Below, in pieces: positions 26,194 through 32,200 of a DNA stretch of 32,328 nt. How positions within the stretch are numbered: the first letter of the stretch is position 1; each line of letters begins with the position of its first letter. Both the position numbers and the translations under genes were made by a program. The stretch is taken from contig JAQSDJ010000084.1 in assembly GCA_029945855.1 (NCBI GenBank), forward strand, positions 11,443 through 43,770, in the 5' to 3' direction. The notes below the pieces were generated by a model. That model was not told the DNA's origin, searched no databases, and saw only the letters and a list, made by a program, of their open reading frames with translations. This DNA comes from Lacunisphaera sp. GTDB lineage: Bacteria > Verrucomicrobiota > Verrucomicrobiia > Opitutales > Opitutaceae.

Positions 26194-26838
26194 GTGAAAA
26201 TCCATGTCCTGCCGTCCGGCCCGATCCAGACCATCGGTTACCTGCTGACCGATGCCGCCTTGGGCGAGGCCGTGCTGGTGGACGCCCCCGGCGGCATCTG
26301 GGCGAAAATCTCGCCGCTGCTCGCCAAGGAAGGCTGCCAGCTCAAGGAACTCTGGCTGACCCACGGGCATTGGGACCACACGCAGGATGCCGCCAAGGTC
26401 GTGCGGGAGACCCAGGCGCTGGTGCGTGGACACAGCGACGACCGGGTGCTGTTCGAGACGCCGGAGATCATGGAGGAGCGGATGGGGCGGGAGATGGGCC
26501 TCGAGCCCGTGAAGATCGACACCTGGGTGGCGCAGGGCGACCGCTTCAAGGCGCTGGGGCGTTTTTTTGAGGTGCGGCACGTGCCGGGCCACTGCCCCGG
26601 CAACGTCCTGTTTTACCAGGCCGACACCCACGCTGCTTTTGTCGGTGACGCGCTGTTCAATGCCGGCGTGGGCCGGTGGGACCTGCCGGGCGGCAGTTTC
26701 AACCTGCTGGCACGCTCCATCCGCGAACAAATCTACACGCTCCCGGACGAGACGGTGGTTTTCCCCGGCCACGGCGAGCGCACCACCGTCGGCGCCGAGA
26801 AGGCCGGCAATCCCTACGTGGCGGCAATTCCGGCATGA
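26194..26838 (+). CDS. MBL-fold metallo-hydrolase (glyoxalase II-like)
   Basis: A 214-residue metallo-beta-lactamase-fold hydrolase. The metal-binding motif THGHWDH (56-62) supplies the first site, HVPGHCPGN (about 131-139) the next ligand histidine, and FVGDALFN and FPGHGERT the remaining Asp and His. The protein is shorter than true glyoxalase II and most like the small YcbL-type group, so the thioester substrate is uncertain. The GTG at 26194 is chosen because the protein pattern begins there (KIHVLPSGPIQTIGYLL); the frame before it is not conserved-looking. Its stop overlaps the ribD start (ATGA), which suggests coupled expression. Confidence 0.85.
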   Translation: MKIHVLPSGPIQTIGYLLTDAALGEAVLVDAPGGIWAKISPLLAKEGCQLKELWLTHGHWDHTQDAAKVVRETQALVRGHSDDRVLFETPEIMEERMGREMGLEPVKIDTWVAQGDRFKALGRFFEVRHVPGHCPGNVLFYQADTHAAFVGDALFNAGVGRWDLPGGSFNLLARSIREQIYTLPDETVVFPGHGERTTVGAEKAGNPYVAAIPA

Positions 26839-27998
26839 GCGGGCACGAGCCATTCATGCGGCGCGCCCTCGAGGTCGCGCGGCGCGGGTGGGGCGAGACC
26901 CACCCGAATCCGCTGGTCGGCGCCCTCATCGTCGAGGACGGCGAGGTGGTCGCGGAGGGCTATCACGCCAAGGCCGGCGAGGCGCATGCGGAGGTCAACG
27001 CGCTGGCGGCGCTCGGGCGGAAGCCCAAGCCCGGCGCGATGCTCTACGTGACGCTCGAGCCCTGTTGCACGCACGGGCGGACGCCGCCTTGCACCGATGC
27101 CATCGTGGATGCGGGTATCACGCGGGTCGTGGTCGGGACGACCGACCCGAATCCGGCGCACGCCGGCAAGGGTTTCGACGTGCTGCGCGCGGGGGGCGTC
27201 GAGGTGGAGACGGGCGTGCTGGCCGCCGACTGCACCGACCTGAACCTGATCTTCAACCACTGGATCGCGAAGGGCGGGCCGCTGTTCGCCGCGAAGTCCG
27301 GCGTGACGCTCGACGGCAAGGTCGCGACCCGGACCGGCGATTCCAAATGGATCACCGGCGAAAAGTCCCGGGCTGACGGTCATCGCTGGCGGCGGCTGTT
27401 CCCGGCCATCGCCGTCGGCGCCGGCACCGTCCGGGCCGACAATCCGCGGCTGACCGCGCGCAGTGCCGGCGGCGAATGGTGCCCGTGGCGGTTTGTGTTC
27501 GACGGCCTGCTGCGCACGGTGACGGACAAGGCGCTGCCAAGCGTCTACACGGACGAGTTCCACGAGCGCACCATCGTCGTGACGACCCCGCATGGCGGCC
27601 TCGGCTACGTGCGCAAGCTCAATGCCCTGGGGGTGAAGACATGGGTGCTGCCGGCGCAGTCGCCCAAGGTGAATTTCCAGGATTTCCGCAAGCGCTGTGC
27701 CGTGGAAGGCATCACGGGCGTTTTCTTCGAGGGCGGGGCGCAGTTGCTCAGCGAGCTGCTGCAGGCGCGCGAACTGGATTATCTTTTCACCTATCATGCC
27801 CCGGTCCTGTTTGCCGACGACAAGGGGAAGAGCATTTTGCGCGGCCTGCGCACGGAGACGCTGGGGGAGGCCATCCGCCTGGAGCAGGTGCGGCACGAGA
27901 TCCATGGCGACGACTCGTTGATGCGCGGCTTTGTGAAGTATCCGGCGAAGATCAACGTGGATGAGGCGACGTTCAACCGGAAGCTGTATGGCGAGTGA
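26835..27998 (+). CDS. ribD: Bifunctional riboflavin deaminase/reductase
   Basis: A 387-residue enzyme for steps two and three of the riboflavin pathway: deamination of the GTP-derived pyrimidine and reduction of its ribosyl group. The deaminase domain (1-145) has the zinc motif HAE (51-53) and PCCTHGRTPPC (76-86), with Cys77 and Cys86 as ligands. The reductase domain (about 147-365) has AKSGVTLDGKVATRTGDSKW, ITGEKSRAD, VGAGTVRADNPRLT and FFEGGAQLLSELL. Both halves appear complete. No other rib genes are nearby. The stop codon is 3 bp before the first 117-bp repeat, so that element lies directly in its 3' flank. Confidence 0.95.
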   Translation: MSGHEPFMRRALEVARRGWGETHPNPLVGALIVEDGEVVAEGYHAKAGEAHAEVNALAALGRKPKPGAMLYVTLEPCCTHGRTPPCTDAIVDAGITRVVVGTTDPNPAHAGKGFDVLRAGGVEVETGVLAADCTDLNLIFNHWIAKGGPLFAAKSGVTLDGKVATRTGDSKWITGEKSRADGHRWRRLFPAIAVGAGTVRADNPRLTARSAGGEWCPWRFVFDGLLRTVTDKALPSVYTDEFHERTIVVTTPHGGLGYVRKLNALGVKTWVLPAQSPKVNFQDFRKRCAVEGITGVFFEGGAQLLSELLQARELDYLFTYHAPVLFADDKGKSILRGLRTETLGEAIRLEQVRHEIHGDDSLMRGFVKYPAKINVDEATFNRKLYGE

Positions 27999-28001
27999 GC
28001 C

Positions 28002-28118
28002 GAGCCATCCCGGTTTCCCCCCACGAATCGCACGAATCATCACGAATGGATCCAAATGCCATTTCCGGGATTCGTGACACGCTGCCGGCTGCGGCAGCGT
28101 ATTTGTGTGATTCGTGGG
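28002..28118 (+). repeat. 117-bp direct repeat, copy 1 (left of the GxxExxY gene)
   Basis: Identical to copy 2 (28514-28630) at 115 of 117 positions. The inner 99 bp (28020-28118) are bounded by 10-bp perfect inverted repeats, CCCACGAATC and GATTCGTGGG. Three CACGAAT heptamers (28022, 28031, 28041) face three inverted ATTCGTG units (28070, 28101 as variant ATTTGTG, 28110). A hairpin with 9-bp stem (ACGCTGCCG/CGGCAGCGT) lies at 28079-28100. A possible GTG start for the next gene (28114) falls inside it. Confidence 0.95.
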
Positions 28119-28137
28119 TATCTCCTCCGACTTCTTT

Positions 28138-28515
28138 ATGACTGAACTATTGTTGAAGGATGAAGTTTACCGCGTGATCGGGTGCGCGTTTGAAGTTTAC
28201 AACGACCTCGGCTGCGGGTTTCTCGAACCGGTCTACCAAGAGGCGTTCGAACTGGAACTGACCGACCAAGGGATTGCTTACGAGGCCCAGAAGCGTTTGC
28301 AGATTTTCTACAAAGGCCGTCCGCTCAAGAAGGACTACATCGCCGACTTGATCGTGATCGGGCAAATCGTAGTGGAACTCAAAGCGGAGGAGCGGCTTCT
28401 GCCCCGCGACGAGGCTCAGCTTATCAACTACCTCAAGGCCACCCGGCTTCGCGTTGGGTTGCTGGTGAATTTTGGAGCCCATCCCAAATTGGAGTGGAAG
28501 CGATTGGTGAACTGA
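28138..28515 (+). CDS. GxxExxY-family protein, PD-(D/E)XK-like, flanked by direct repeats
   Basis: A 125-residue protein of the GxxExxY family; the naming motif is GFLEPVY (Gly27, Glu30, Tyr33). The biochemical function is not established to my knowledge. Asp70, then Glu80-x-Lys82 (ADLIVIGQIVVELKA) and Gln94 form a PD-(D/E)XK nuclease-like pattern, so DNA cleavage is possible but unproven. The ATG at 28138 follows repeat copy 1 by 19 bp. An in-frame GTG at 28114 would begin inside the repeat and add eight residues. The stop codon (28513-28515) overlaps the first bases of repeat copy 2. The gene is less GC-rich than ribD and rdgB on either side, suggesting acquisition as a gene-plus-repeat unit. 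Confidence 0.88.
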   Translation: MTELLLKDEVYRVIGCAFEVYNDLGCGFLEPVYQEAFELELTDQGIAYEAQKRLQIFYKGRPLKKDYIADLIVIGQIVVELKAEERLLPRDEAQLINYLKATRLRVGLLVNFGAHPKLEWKRLVN

Positions 28516-28630
28516 GCCATCCCGGTTTTCCCCCACGAATCGCACGAATCATCACGAATGGATCCAAATGCCATTTCCGGGATTCGTGACACGCTGCCGG
28601 CTGCGGCAGCGTATTCGTGTGATTCGTGGG
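28514..28630 (+). repeat. 117-bp direct repeat, copy 2 (right of the GxxExxY gene)
   Basis: Same orientation as copy 1, 512 bp further on, differing at two positions: a T/C change in the T/C run near the left end, and ATTCGTG instead of ATTTGTG in the fifth heptamer. The 10-bp terminal inverted repeats are at 28532-28541 and 28621-28630. A weaker likeness continues beyond both copies (CTCCTCCGACTTC versus CTCCTCCGCCTTC). The rdgB start lies 40 bp downstream. Confidence 0.95.
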
Positions 28631-28669
28631 ACAAACTCCTCCGCCTTCCGGTTTCGCCAGGAATTTAGA

Positions 28670-29272
28670 GTGAGTATTCGCCTCATCCATCTCGCCAGCG
28701 GGAATTCGCACAAGGCGGCTGAGTTTCAGCGGCTGGCTGAGGCGTCGGGCTCGCCCTGGGAGATCCTGCCGACTGCGGGCATGCCCGCAGTGGTCGAGGA
28801 CACGGGCACGTTTCCCGGGAATGCCCGGAAGAAGGCGATGGCCTTGCAGGCGCTGCTGCCGGCGGACGCATGGGTGTTGGCCGATGACAGCGGCGTGTGC
28901 GTCGATGCGCTCGGCGGCCTGCCGGGGGTGGAGTCGGCGTATTTCGCCGGGCCGCAGCATGACAGCGCGGCCAATTTGCGGAAACTCGCCGAGGTGATGC
29001 GTGACGTGCCGGAGGGGCAACGCGGGGCGGCCTTTGTGTGCTGCCTGGTGCTGCGCGGACCGGGCGGAATCGAGCAGGTCTGCGAGGGGCGCTGCACGGG
29101 TGTGCTGCGGCATGAGCCGCGGGGCGGCTTTGGCTTCGGCTACGATCCGCTCTTCATCCCGGACGGGTTTGCGTGCACCTATGCCGAGCTCCCGGAGGCG
29201 GAGAAAAACAAAATCAGCCACCGCGGACGCGCGTGGCTGATTCTGGCGGAGTGGCTGCGGCGGCAGTCCTAA
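28670..29272 (+). CDS. rdgB: RdgB/HAM1-family dITP/XTP pyrophosphatase
   Basis: A 200-residue nucleotide-pool cleaner that hydrolyses dITP, ITP and XTP to monophosphates. Conserved blocks are ASGNSHKAAEF (9-19), EDTGTFPGNARKKA (43-56), ADDSGVCVDALGG (71-83) with the catalytic Asp region, GGFGFGYDPLF (152-162) and EAEKNKISHRGRA (176-188). Length is normal. The GTG at 28670 is chosen because the conserved SIRLIHLASGN strand begins there and AGGA lies 7 nt upstream; the longer open frame before it runs through repeat copy 2. It converges on the large pilus-type gene, with only 13 bp between stop codons and no obvious terminator. Confidence 0.94.
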   Translation: MSIRLIHLASGNSHKAAEFQRLAEASGSPWEILPTAGMPAVVEDTGTFPGNARKKAMALQALLPADAWVLADDSGVCVDALGGLPGVESAYFAGPQHDSAANLRKLAEVMRDVPEGQRGAAFVCCLVLRGPGGIEQVCEGRCTGVLRHEPRGGFGFGYDPLFIPDGFACTYAELPEAEKNKISHRGRAWLILAEWLRRQS

Positions 29273-29285
29273 GTCCGCGGCCGGC

Positions 29286-32200
29286 TCAAGGTATGGTGGT
29301 CAGTGCTTCGAGGTAGGTCTTGCGGGTGGCGTAGTCGGTTGCGGACAATTCACGGAAACCCAGGCGGTCGGCGCCGATCACGAGCGGCTCGAGCGGGACG
29401 TCGTGGTTGGCGGTGCGGAAGCCCTCGTGCAGGCCCCAGTAGCGGTCAGGCGCCGCATAGCAGCGGATGTTCCAAGGTTCCATCGCCACGCGACTCTCGA
29501 AGAGGGCGACCATGGAGCCGCGGATGTAGAGACCGGAATTGGTGCCGCTGCCCATGTCATTGTGCCAGTCCTCAATCAGGCGGGGGAAGTTGTGGGCGCC
29601 ACCGCTGTATTGGGCGTTGGCGGCGCTCATCGGCGGTCGGTCGGTCAGGTTGGTGGCATTGTGATTGCTCGGGATCATGCCCATCAGCACGGCGGTGGAG
29701 AACTCGGTATTGACCGTCGGCAGCTTGGTCTGCCAGGTCGAGCCCGTCGGGCCGGGGGTGCTGCTGGTGGGCAAAGCGCCGGGTCTGATGGCGGTGGCGC
29801 TGCCGAGACCTTCGAATTGGTTGCTATTGCTGGGGGCGGCCGTGTCCCAGGTGGCCACCCAGGCGGCATTCGTAACGCGGAAAGCGCTCAAGGCGTCGTT
29901 CCAGCCGTTGGTCTGGTAGTAGGGAGTGCTGGCCGTGCTGAAGACCGGCTGGGACAGCAGCGTGATGGCATCGGCCATCACGGAGGCCAGTTTTTCGTTG
30001 GCCGAGTCGGGGAACCGGGCGCTGTAGCCGCCGATGGCCGTGGTGGAGGTCGTGGTGCTGTTGACCGTGCCGTCGGCGTTGAAATGGCCCACGAGATAGG
30101 CCGCATCGTTGGTGGCAAAGGTAAAGCCTGTCTTGGCAGTGGTGCTGAGCGAGACGAGCGGACCGCGGCCGTTGATCAGGCGGACGCCAGAGTCGATGCG
30201 GTCGTTGATGTTGGTGGCGATCGTCTGGGCGCGACGCTCCGCTTCGACCGATTGGACGAAGATGGCGATACCGTCATACCAGGCGGAACCCAAGTCGCTC
30301 GCCGGCACGGCCAGGTTGCTGGGGTCGGCCGGGATGAGCGTGGGGGTGCTGGGGGTGAGATAGGCGGGCGTGTAGTAGAGCTGGAACGGATCCAGCCGGT
30401 TGAGGGTCGCGGCGGTGCCGGTGACGGGGAAAATGTTGTAGGTGAAGGCCGCGGCGAGATCGGCGTCAGTGCCCAGGGCGATGGATGTCGCGGTGCCGCC
30501 GGAGTTGTAGATCGAGTTGGTCCAGTTGGTGGCGGTCGGCAAGTCGACATTGTAGCCGGTGCTGGACATGCCGTCGGTGGTGAGGGTGGAAAGGGTGCTC
30601 ATGACGCGGTTCACCATCATCTTCAGGCGGGCGAGGTCTAAATCGATCTTCACCAGGGCGCGGGGCCGGTAATTGTTGGTGCTGCGGGCGGAACCGCCGG
30701 CGATGTTGGAATTGTAGCCGACATTGCCGTCGGCGCGGCGCAGGTCGAAGAAGTAGGCCTCGGCCGGGTAGGGTTGCGTGGCAGTATCCGCAGGGAAAAG
30801 GTTGCCCGAGCCGCCGACGGCCGTGTAGCCGGTGTAGGGCAGGGGATCGACGGTGACCAAGGTGTTGTCGGTCACGGGACTGCCCGAGATCCCGGGGACG
30901 ATGGTGATGACGCCGCCGTTGAGCGAGGAGGCGGCCATGTAGCGCGTCCCGCCAATGTTGAGGAAGTTGCCGGCGTGGATGGTGCCGACACCGGTATCGA
31001 TCACGATCTGCTGGGTCCCGACGGCATAATCGGTGGCGTTGTTCGTGAAATACTCCTTGCCGGTGCCCAGCGCACCGGTGGTGGCGTCGATCGTGACCGA
31101 AAAGCCGTCGGAGACGCCGACGGCGGTGCGAATACCCGGGGAGGAGATGCCGATCGGATAATTCGTCGTGACGTTGGCCGGCGCCGCGACAGGTGCGCGG
31201 GTGACCAGATAGCGCTGGGGATTGATGTAGATGGTGTTGCCCGGGATGATGGTCTTGGTGTCGCCATCGAGATTCAGGGCCGTGGCAAACTGCGCAACGG
31301 CACCGTTGGTCACGAATGTTGTGGCGGTGCCGCGGAAGGAGGGACCAACCGTAATCGCGGCGTTGTCCGCGACCGCGGCGGCCAGACCGGGGGCCCCGAT
31401 CTTGACGATGCCGCCGGAGAGATCGCCGACGACCAGGTAGCGGTAGGCGCCGATGGTCAGGACTTCGCCCGTCTGGATAATGCCGGTGCCTGTGTCCACC
31501 GCGAGGTCCGTGGCCCCGATCGCGTAGCCGGCGGCGTTGTTGATCACGTAGCCGGTGGCCAGATTGTAACCGTGCTGGACGGTGCGCAGGACCTGGTTGG
31601 AACCGACCGCCGTGCCGGAGCCGACAATGGTTCCGGACAGGTAACGGTTGGGCAGCACGTTGTCATACATGAAGTCATCGGCCATCTGGGCCGCCGTGGT
31701 GCCCGCCGTGCCGCCATTGTTGTAGCCGTAAGTGGGCTGGCCGGGCAGAACCACCTCGCGCAGGGTGTGCGTGGAATCGCTATTCACGATGTTCAACCAA
31801 GCCCGGTAGGAGCGGGGCAGGATCGGCACGGTGGTGCCGTCCGGCAGCCGGCCGAGGCGGGCGGTATTATCGGGATTGACGGCGATGTAGAGGCCGCATT
31901 TGCGGGACATCTTGAGTTCCTTGGTGGCGGCGTCGTCGGTGGTGTCCATCCACTCCCAAGCGGTGGTCGTGGAGTTGAACAGCCATTTCCGGGGGTTGCG
32001 CGGCTCGATCATCTGGCGACCGTTGCTGCGGTCGTCCTCCGGGGTCGAGGCCAGATTGGTTTCATTGTAGGAACCGATGCCGGGAAGCTCGAGCTTGGAG
32101 ACGCCGTGGGCGCTGGTGCGGACGTTGCCGCCGTAGGTGGAGGTGGCGAAGGTCTTGAACTGGTTCACCGTGCTCGTGCTCTCGGTGGCGGAGCCATACT

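Follow-up and report, generated by a model that had tools for sequence, protein, structure and literature searches.

A gene of 125 codons lies between two nearly identical direct repeats in the ribD-rdgB junction of a Lacunisphaera genome. What kind of unit do gene and repeats form, and what does the encoded protein do? The window analysed here is a stretch of 32,328 nt on contig C84 of a 5.0-Mb genome. The initial annotation proposed that the gene, of the GxxExxY family, makes up a mobile or selfish unit with the repeat, much as RAYT genes do with REP sequences. The idea of a mobile unit has gained partial support, from iterated-word arms around such genes and not from the 117-bp repeat itself. 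We conclude that the locus is probably one copy of a widespread miniature mobile element, similar to REPIN/RAYT systems and equipped with an unrelated enzyme.

The gene (28138..28515, plus strand; PF13366, E=1.9e-42; TIGR04256, E=5.9e-42) has ribD (26835..27998, plus strand; TIGR00326, E=1.5e-88) as its left neighbour and rdgB/HAM1 (28670..29272, plus strand; PF01725, E=9.6e-55) as its right neighbour, with a repeat copy on either side, as first described. The copies, both on the plus strand at 28002..28118 and 28514..28630, are 512 bp apart in the same orientation and identical at 115 of 117 positions, the mismatches falling at left-copy positions 28017 and 28104. The right copy begins within the TGA stop codon of the gene, two bases being common to both. 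Each copy is in turn an inverted repeat: its left arm holds the word CACGAAT three times at spacings of 9 and 10 nt, and its right part holds reverse complements of that word. In the left copy the three-word arm occupies 28020-28047 (words at 28022, 28031 and 28041) and the closing arm 28101-28118; in the right copy they occupy 28532-28559 (words at 28534, 28543 and 28553) and 28613-28630. Folding of the 107-nt core of each copy as single-stranded DNA gave -35.7 and -39.1 kcal/mol (z -8.0 and -8.2), and none of 200 dinucleotide shuffles was as low. This inverted-repeat architecture of iterated words, overlooked at first reading, is the common feature of GxxExxY loci, and the 117-bp sequence is not. 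Adjoining rdgB is a 960-aa open reading frame (29286-32168, minus strand) with a weak match to HpsA (E=9.1e-9; 33.5 bits, cut-off 400).

The protein exceeds the cut-offs of both family models (TIGR04256, 142.7 bits against 35; PF13366 PDDEXK_3, 144.8 bits against 22), the latter being its sole Pfam match. The PD-(D/E)XK-like signature pointed out at first reading (D70, E80, K82 and Q94) is invariant in all 27 aligned sequences, the window's included, as are E30 and, among others, G15, G25, G27, Y33, E40 and N97. An AlphaFold model has a mean pLDDT of 95.5. Its best Foldseek match among solved folds is SSO0001 (4ic1; E=2.2e-4), which we take to be a Cas4, followed by lambda-type exonucleases at E of 6e-3 or weaker. 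Residues Q94-Y98 form the Q-h-x-x-Y motif of RecB/Cas4 nucleases. The likeness to Cas4, lambda exonuclease and the RecB nuclease domain consists of nearest solved fold and motif; the GxxExxY protein differs in being a stand-alone domain of 125 aa. The Fe-S cluster of Cas4 is held by four cysteines, and the window protein, with only two, lacks that set. No sequence relative was found in PDB at E<=10, PADLOC defence models gave 0 families at E<=1, and a PHROGs search gave no match; nor does the only gene of the element match a DDE, tyrosine, serine or HUH transposase domain in Pfam. From sequence and model, the protein looks like an intact, minimal, single-domain RecB/Cas4-like PD-(D/E)XK nuclease, its activity being a prediction.

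The gene is under purifying selection. Among 12 Prevotella copies the median dN/dS is 0.054 and the maximum 0.156 (56 of 66 pairs with finite dS). An intact, selected gene fits a mobility enzyme and a useful cargo alike. The window genome has eight GxxExxY matches by sequence and nine by profile; TIGR04256 matches occur in 20 of the 21 genus genomes, 116 in all with fragments included, and 11 of the 21 have 5 to 12 matches each. In G027, a Neomarinimicrobiota MAG, 24 GxxExxY matches were found, many partial and several with stops, reflecting either decay after a burst or, in part, MAG contig ends.

Repeats accompany GxxExxY genes far beyond this locus, and the lack of any such link, named in the initial annotation as an outcome that would refute it, was not what we found: the association is strong, with the same architecture and with words that differ between clades. 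At six of the other seven sequence matches in the window genome the gene lies between short inverted arms, each with a 7-nt word iterated about three times; at the seventh (L009) the arms are not clear. The words differ among these loci (CACTAAT, CGCGAAT, CGCTAAT/CGCTGAT, CGCGAAG, CAGGAG type and CACAAAA). For a wider survey, with 53 further loci from records of many phyla, we located 149 gene matches. After dropping truncated flanks, same-gene repeats and certain named loci, 140, 138 or 96 were kept, which include many orthologs and are not independent events (L121 is from the same genome as G003; L122 is the same locus as L033).

When the upstream flank was aligned with the reverse-complemented downstream flank, a score of at least 16 was reached at 103 of 140 GxxExxY loci. 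Other ORFs on these contigs reached it in 11 of 376 cases, and random pairings in 5.9% of 3000. A three-word arm detector scored at least 75 at 105 of 138 GxxExxY loci and at 11 of 377 control ORFs; these control ORFs (376-377) have coding-dense flanks and are lenient, S23 loci and shuffles being stricter. With the detector restricted to periods 9 and 10, 84 of 138 loci scored at least 65, as did 0 of 552 dinucleotide shuffles. Single-period scans from 5 to 13 found 32 loci at period 9, 22 at period 10 and at most five at any other. Several results count against the explanation that we favour: 33 of the 138 loci fall below the three-word score of 75; in a new set of 17 GxxExxY loci (30 less four truncated and nine already used) only six reached the strict score; and arms from different GxxExxY loci, when mispaired, scored at least 70 in 135 of 600 cases, because the words have a common core.

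Spacings are identical in both arms at 81 of 96 loci. The right arm usually starts at the stop codon, and the left arm is found a short way upstream of the start codon. Outer edge and first word of 145 arms give the consensus TTnACC-[A/G]-C-[G/A/T]-[A/G]-A-N, biased at the first three word positions because the register was filtered on those positions; the commonest register is C-R-C-D-R-A-N, at 9-10 nt spacing with TTnACC as outer edge. Three plasmid loci were examined, out of eight records matched, and clear arms are present at one only, in Bacteroides, which again counts against the favoured explanation. The Treponema plasmid locus has one short inverted pair. At the third (L236, Fusobacteria plasmid CP102406.1) the gene lies, by eye, between direct, not inverted, copies of a short sequence around CAGATTTAATCCGTGTACCTAT, as in the window.

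How does the window's direct pair relate to this pattern? The general geometry is that of inverted arms of three iterated words, and the direct pair is a doubled hairpin around the gene. Dispersal of the 117-bp repeat through its own genome, the lack of which the initial annotation had counted as refuting, was not found: a whole-genome search returned two places, both at the window locus, and so the repeat was ruled out as a high-copy element of that genome. The window-type arm pattern has 21 matches in eight of the 21 genus genomes, of which ten belong to three homologous gene loci (G000, G003 and G007) and the remaining 11 are mostly other words. Doubled hairpins around the gene were also seen by eye in G003, G007, L154 and L091. 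A direct-repeat pair was ruled out as the defining feature of these loci, since doubling was seen only at loci of the window type and at a few more, L154 and L091 among them. At those two, from a Chloroflexota record and from G011, the layout is hairpin-gene-hairpin as in the window. The two window hairpins are 98% identical to each other and 63-66% identical to hairpins of relatives; those of G007 are 82% identical to each other. Since the hairpins are closer mutually than to those of relatives, we infer that the copies around the gene were duplicated or homogenised within the lineage.

The word in the arms goes with the protein clade, not with the host genome. Over the 96 loci with clear words, protein similarity and word similarity are correlated (Mantel r=0.31, 0 of 2000 permutations). 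For 79 of the 96, identity to the word of the closest protein from another genome is 6/7 or higher, where the background is 19%. Words of paralogs within a genome are no closer than those of other pairs (0.645 vs 0.643). Pairs with similar flanks were then taken out to exclude simple inheritance at one site; 58 of 96 still agreed, where the background is 18%, and none of 2000 permutations reached this number, the maximum being 35. Only loci scoring at least 80 were used, so the word-protein result applies to loci with clear arms. That the word tracks the protein clade indicates that gene and arms travel and evolve together.

Arms also occur without the gene. The three-word pattern beginning ACCACNAA has 528 matches in the 21 genus genomes, and the reversed pattern has one; by eye, about 12 of 30 fetched loci are plain gene-less hairpins. 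Among the 150 arms listed, out of the 528, neighbours less than 600 bp apart are convergent in 34 cases, divergent in none and on the same strand in one; 31 of the arm pairs, at 67-240 bp, leave no room for the gene, and all three pairs spanning 436-447 bp are GxxExxY loci. Arm and gene numbers are correlated across genomes (rho 0.71, or 0.48 once two arms per gene are subtracted), and arm number also tracks genome size (0.51). Two genomes count against our explanation: G010, 86% complete, has 13 arms and a GxxExxY gene was not found in it, and G001 has 38 arms and a single gene, of another word. These counts indicate that hairpins can outlast or outnumber the gene. In Herpetosiphon (G024, G033-G037), a 2-kb query around one conserved GxxExxY locus has 39-75 matches per genome, and those listed beyond the conserved locus are short and to the arms; many iterated-word repeats are found in the intergenic regions of these genomes.

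Comparison of orthologous junctions bears on movement. The ribD-rdgB junction was compared in 20 genus genomes, not 21, because an rdgB match was not found in G013. Sixteen are empty, with gaps of -3 to 42 nt; in G000 and G003 hairpins enclose the gene; in G014 the junction is occupied by an inverted repeat of CACAAAA-type words and no gene; and that of G009 (L111) has an unrelated inverted repeat around GCTGAGCGCAGCGAAG and its reverse complement, so that several kinds of repeat use this junction. In G007 the window-type element lies about 3.5 kb upstream of ribD, and that genome's own ribD-rdgB junction is empty (gap 6). Recombination between the copies had been expected to delete the gene cleanly and leave one copy; no such event was observed, the 16 empty junctions having no leftover copy and the gene-less repeat of G014 having another word. 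One window-type element (L166) has a gene lacking about 246 nt in the middle.

At a Prevotella permease-ATPase junction, the best 30 of 99 matching genomes comprise four with a GxxExxY element, 25 empty and one (G113) with a gene-less arm pair; as these are the best 30 of 99, they give no frequency of filled sites, and four of the 25 junctions counted as empty were judged so from the sequence, the left alignment having stopped short. A second Prevotella element, with similar ends, is found at three loci in related species: one in G029, G098, G107 and G137, another in eight genomes (L347-L353 and L355) and a third in G119. A gene-less, internally deleted version is present at the first of these loci in G066; species without the element mostly have other sequence there and not a clean empty site. 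By eye, gene-less inverted repeats of AACAAC words, or in some species of ACAATAA words, were seen at this first locus (L324, L328, L330, L332, L340 and L344) where the GxxExxY element is absent. Inspection of the Prevotella loci by eye for target-site duplications gave one candidate, GATTA in G029, which was not seen in the others.

Filled and empty junctions, relocation and internal deletion are what one usually sees of a mobile element that has non-autonomous derivatives. Three observations count against this account of the locus. Target-site duplication goes no further than the one candidate, no excision or insertion within a species was seen, and the gene region of L225 is kept in all six Herpetosiphon genomes, as with a host-useful gene. 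Between Herpetosiphon G024 and G034 (mostly 91-95% identical over about 180 kb) no clean empty site was found, because the intergenic regions hold many overlapping repeat types.

S23 genes (TIGR02436), which are small and multi-copy and present in 20 of the 21 genus genomes, were chosen as a control. Their use as a clean negative control had to be abandoned: periods 8-11 gave 1 of 30 loci at a score of at least 75, but a detector with a 7-nt period reversed that result. At this period, inverted iterated arms scoring at least 70 were found at 14 of 25 genus S23 loci and at 11 of 30 from ten other genomes (all from the sets L362-L391 and L404-L433); none of 138 GxxExxY loci, 377 control ORFs and 17 new GxxExxY loci had them. 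At periods 9 and 10 the pattern is reversed, with 73 of 138 and 6 of 17 GxxExxY loci, 1 of 25 and 0 of 30 S23 loci, and 1 of 377 controls. Examples of S23 arm words are GTTGAG, AGTTTA and GGGCAG. The 7-nt detector was built after viewing the same S23 loci, and the independent test is that on the loci of ten other genomes; in a first 7-nt scan 8 of 30 loci were dropped because strand had been guessed, and in the rescan strands were taken from the listing and five truncated loci of 30 were dropped. Arm spacing goes with the protein family, which favours a code read by the protein. The S23 arms also weaken the case that nuclease activity as such moves the arms: we know of no nuclease activity of the S23 four-helix bundle, and since its genes have similar iterated arms, such arms may be moved by something else. 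In two genomes a GxxExxY gene has an S23 gene about 1.2 kb away (L025/L362 in G005, contig C279; L024/L365 in G018, contig C68).

Known systems resemble the element in part. RAYT systems have one small gene flanked by two inverted repeats, with dispersed hairpins composed of inverted pairs of those repeats (PMC2817692, PMC3116915, PMC3733652). The GxxExxY family likewise has gene-flanking inverted repeats and dispersed gene-less hairpins, a likeness limited by the window's own repeat, which is not dispersed. The transposase domain of RAYTs is of the IS200/IS605 type (Pfam01797), and each REP is a palindrome headed by GT(A/G)G (PMC2817692); in contrast, PF01797 is absent from the window protein, whose only Pfam match is PF13366, and GxxExxY arms are three iterated 7-nt words with a TTnACC edge. 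REPIN/RAYT is the closest working analogue, and membership fails on enzyme and arm structure. With IS elements and MITEs the element shares terminal inverted repeats, a single gene, internally deleted gene-less derivatives and occupied or empty orthologous sites, but it has no known transposase domain, its arms are iterated, its target-site duplication is no more than a candidate, and it is about 440-560 bp long where measured. S23 is the ORF of 23S rRNA intervening sequences (IVS), bounded by inverted repeats, and the IVS described in PMC4990558 is a selfish element of 428 nt whose single small ORF lies within terminal inverted repeats. The small ORF within terminal inverted repeats recalls the GxxExxY element; the differences are that S23 is a four-helix bundle and IVSs are sited in rRNA helices, whereas the GxxExxY elements found encode a PD-(D/E)XK protein and lie between protein genes. 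In the open-access literature searched, the GxxExxY family is rarely named and not in connection with arms, and we saw no account of such arms flanking GxxExxY or S23 genes.

The element as we picture it would consist of one small GxxExxY nuclease gene and two inverted arms, normally of three 7-nt words each. Gene-less hairpins with such arms would be its non-autonomous form, and in the window the hairpin would have been doubled, placing a whole hairpin on either side of the gene. The protein may recognise its own word, making three contacts per arm at about one per helical turn, and may nick or cut the arms or an extruded hairpin; cutting would then lead to new copies, in intergenic sites, of the unit itself and, in trans, of its gene-less relatives. 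That gene and arms move as a unit is quite likely. That the nuclease drives this movement could be so, and we stop short of calling it probable.

The main rival holds that GxxExxY is cargo, a host-beneficial or defence-type nuclease riding on a miniature inverted-repeat element mobilised by a different enzyme. Strong purifying selection, retention in all six Herpetosiphon genomes and analogous arms at S23 genes would all suit it. So would the precedent of Rpn (PF04754), whose proteins are of PD-(D/E)XK type like GxxExxY and belong to another Pfam family. They were first called transposase-like (PMC5350276) and later reported to act in toxin-antitoxin phage defence (PMC10327210). Against the cargo explanation, the word differs by protein clade, not by host, even with similar-flank pairs removed; among the 150 of 528 arms listed, only three of 34 arm pairs are gene-sized, and all three hold GxxExxY; and no PADLOC model matches. 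We consider the cargo explanation rather unlikely.

Could the arms instead be immobile, passed on together with the gene, and act as RNA in the form of hairpins that flank the transcript (terminators, stabilisers or an RNA ligand for the protein)? Their placement, from the stop codon on the right and just upstream of the start on the left, would be natural for such a role, as would the strong fold of the window copies, which was computed as DNA only. Against it stand the gene-less copies, the presence or absence of the whole unit at orthologous junctions, the same Prevotella unit at different loci, and an Rfam search of window positions 27900-28750 that gave no match; the RNA explanation is improbable. 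Least credible, to the point of being nearly dismissed, is a mere local duplication around an ordinary gene, without wider meaning. Its one advantage is that the own genome holds the 117-bp sequence at this locus only, and its general form is already contradicted by the same architecture at 105 of 138 GxxExxY loci and by words that co-vary with the protein; the origin of the second window hairpin may be so described. The mobile element with a protein of its own remains the reading we prefer.

Extending it to both families, we tentatively suggest that GxxExxY and S23, two unrelated families, may be the genes at the heart of a superclass of tiny mobile elements, not recognised before and spread across many bacterial phyla. 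The ends of such elements would be inverted word arrays, with a spacing that depends on the protein family (9-10 nt in GxxExxY elements, 7 nt in those of S23) and a sequence that depends on the protein clade, as seen so far for GxxExxY, and the protein would read the word as a code for the hairpins that it mobilises.

From its arms, each protein has a predicted DNA target specific to its clade, which makes binding, cleavage and transposition directly testable, and for GxxExxY a swap of words between clades is a built-in control. The S23 parallel ties in to the old question of the role of the 23S rRNA intervening-sequence protein. If the explanation is confirmed, a PD-(D/E)XK protein would be added to the enzymes with a mobile element of their own, and there would be an explanation for a class of hairpin repeats between genes, observed in a genus of Verrucomicrobia, in Prevotella and in Herpetosiphon; a natural set of co-evolved protein-word pairs would also be at hand.
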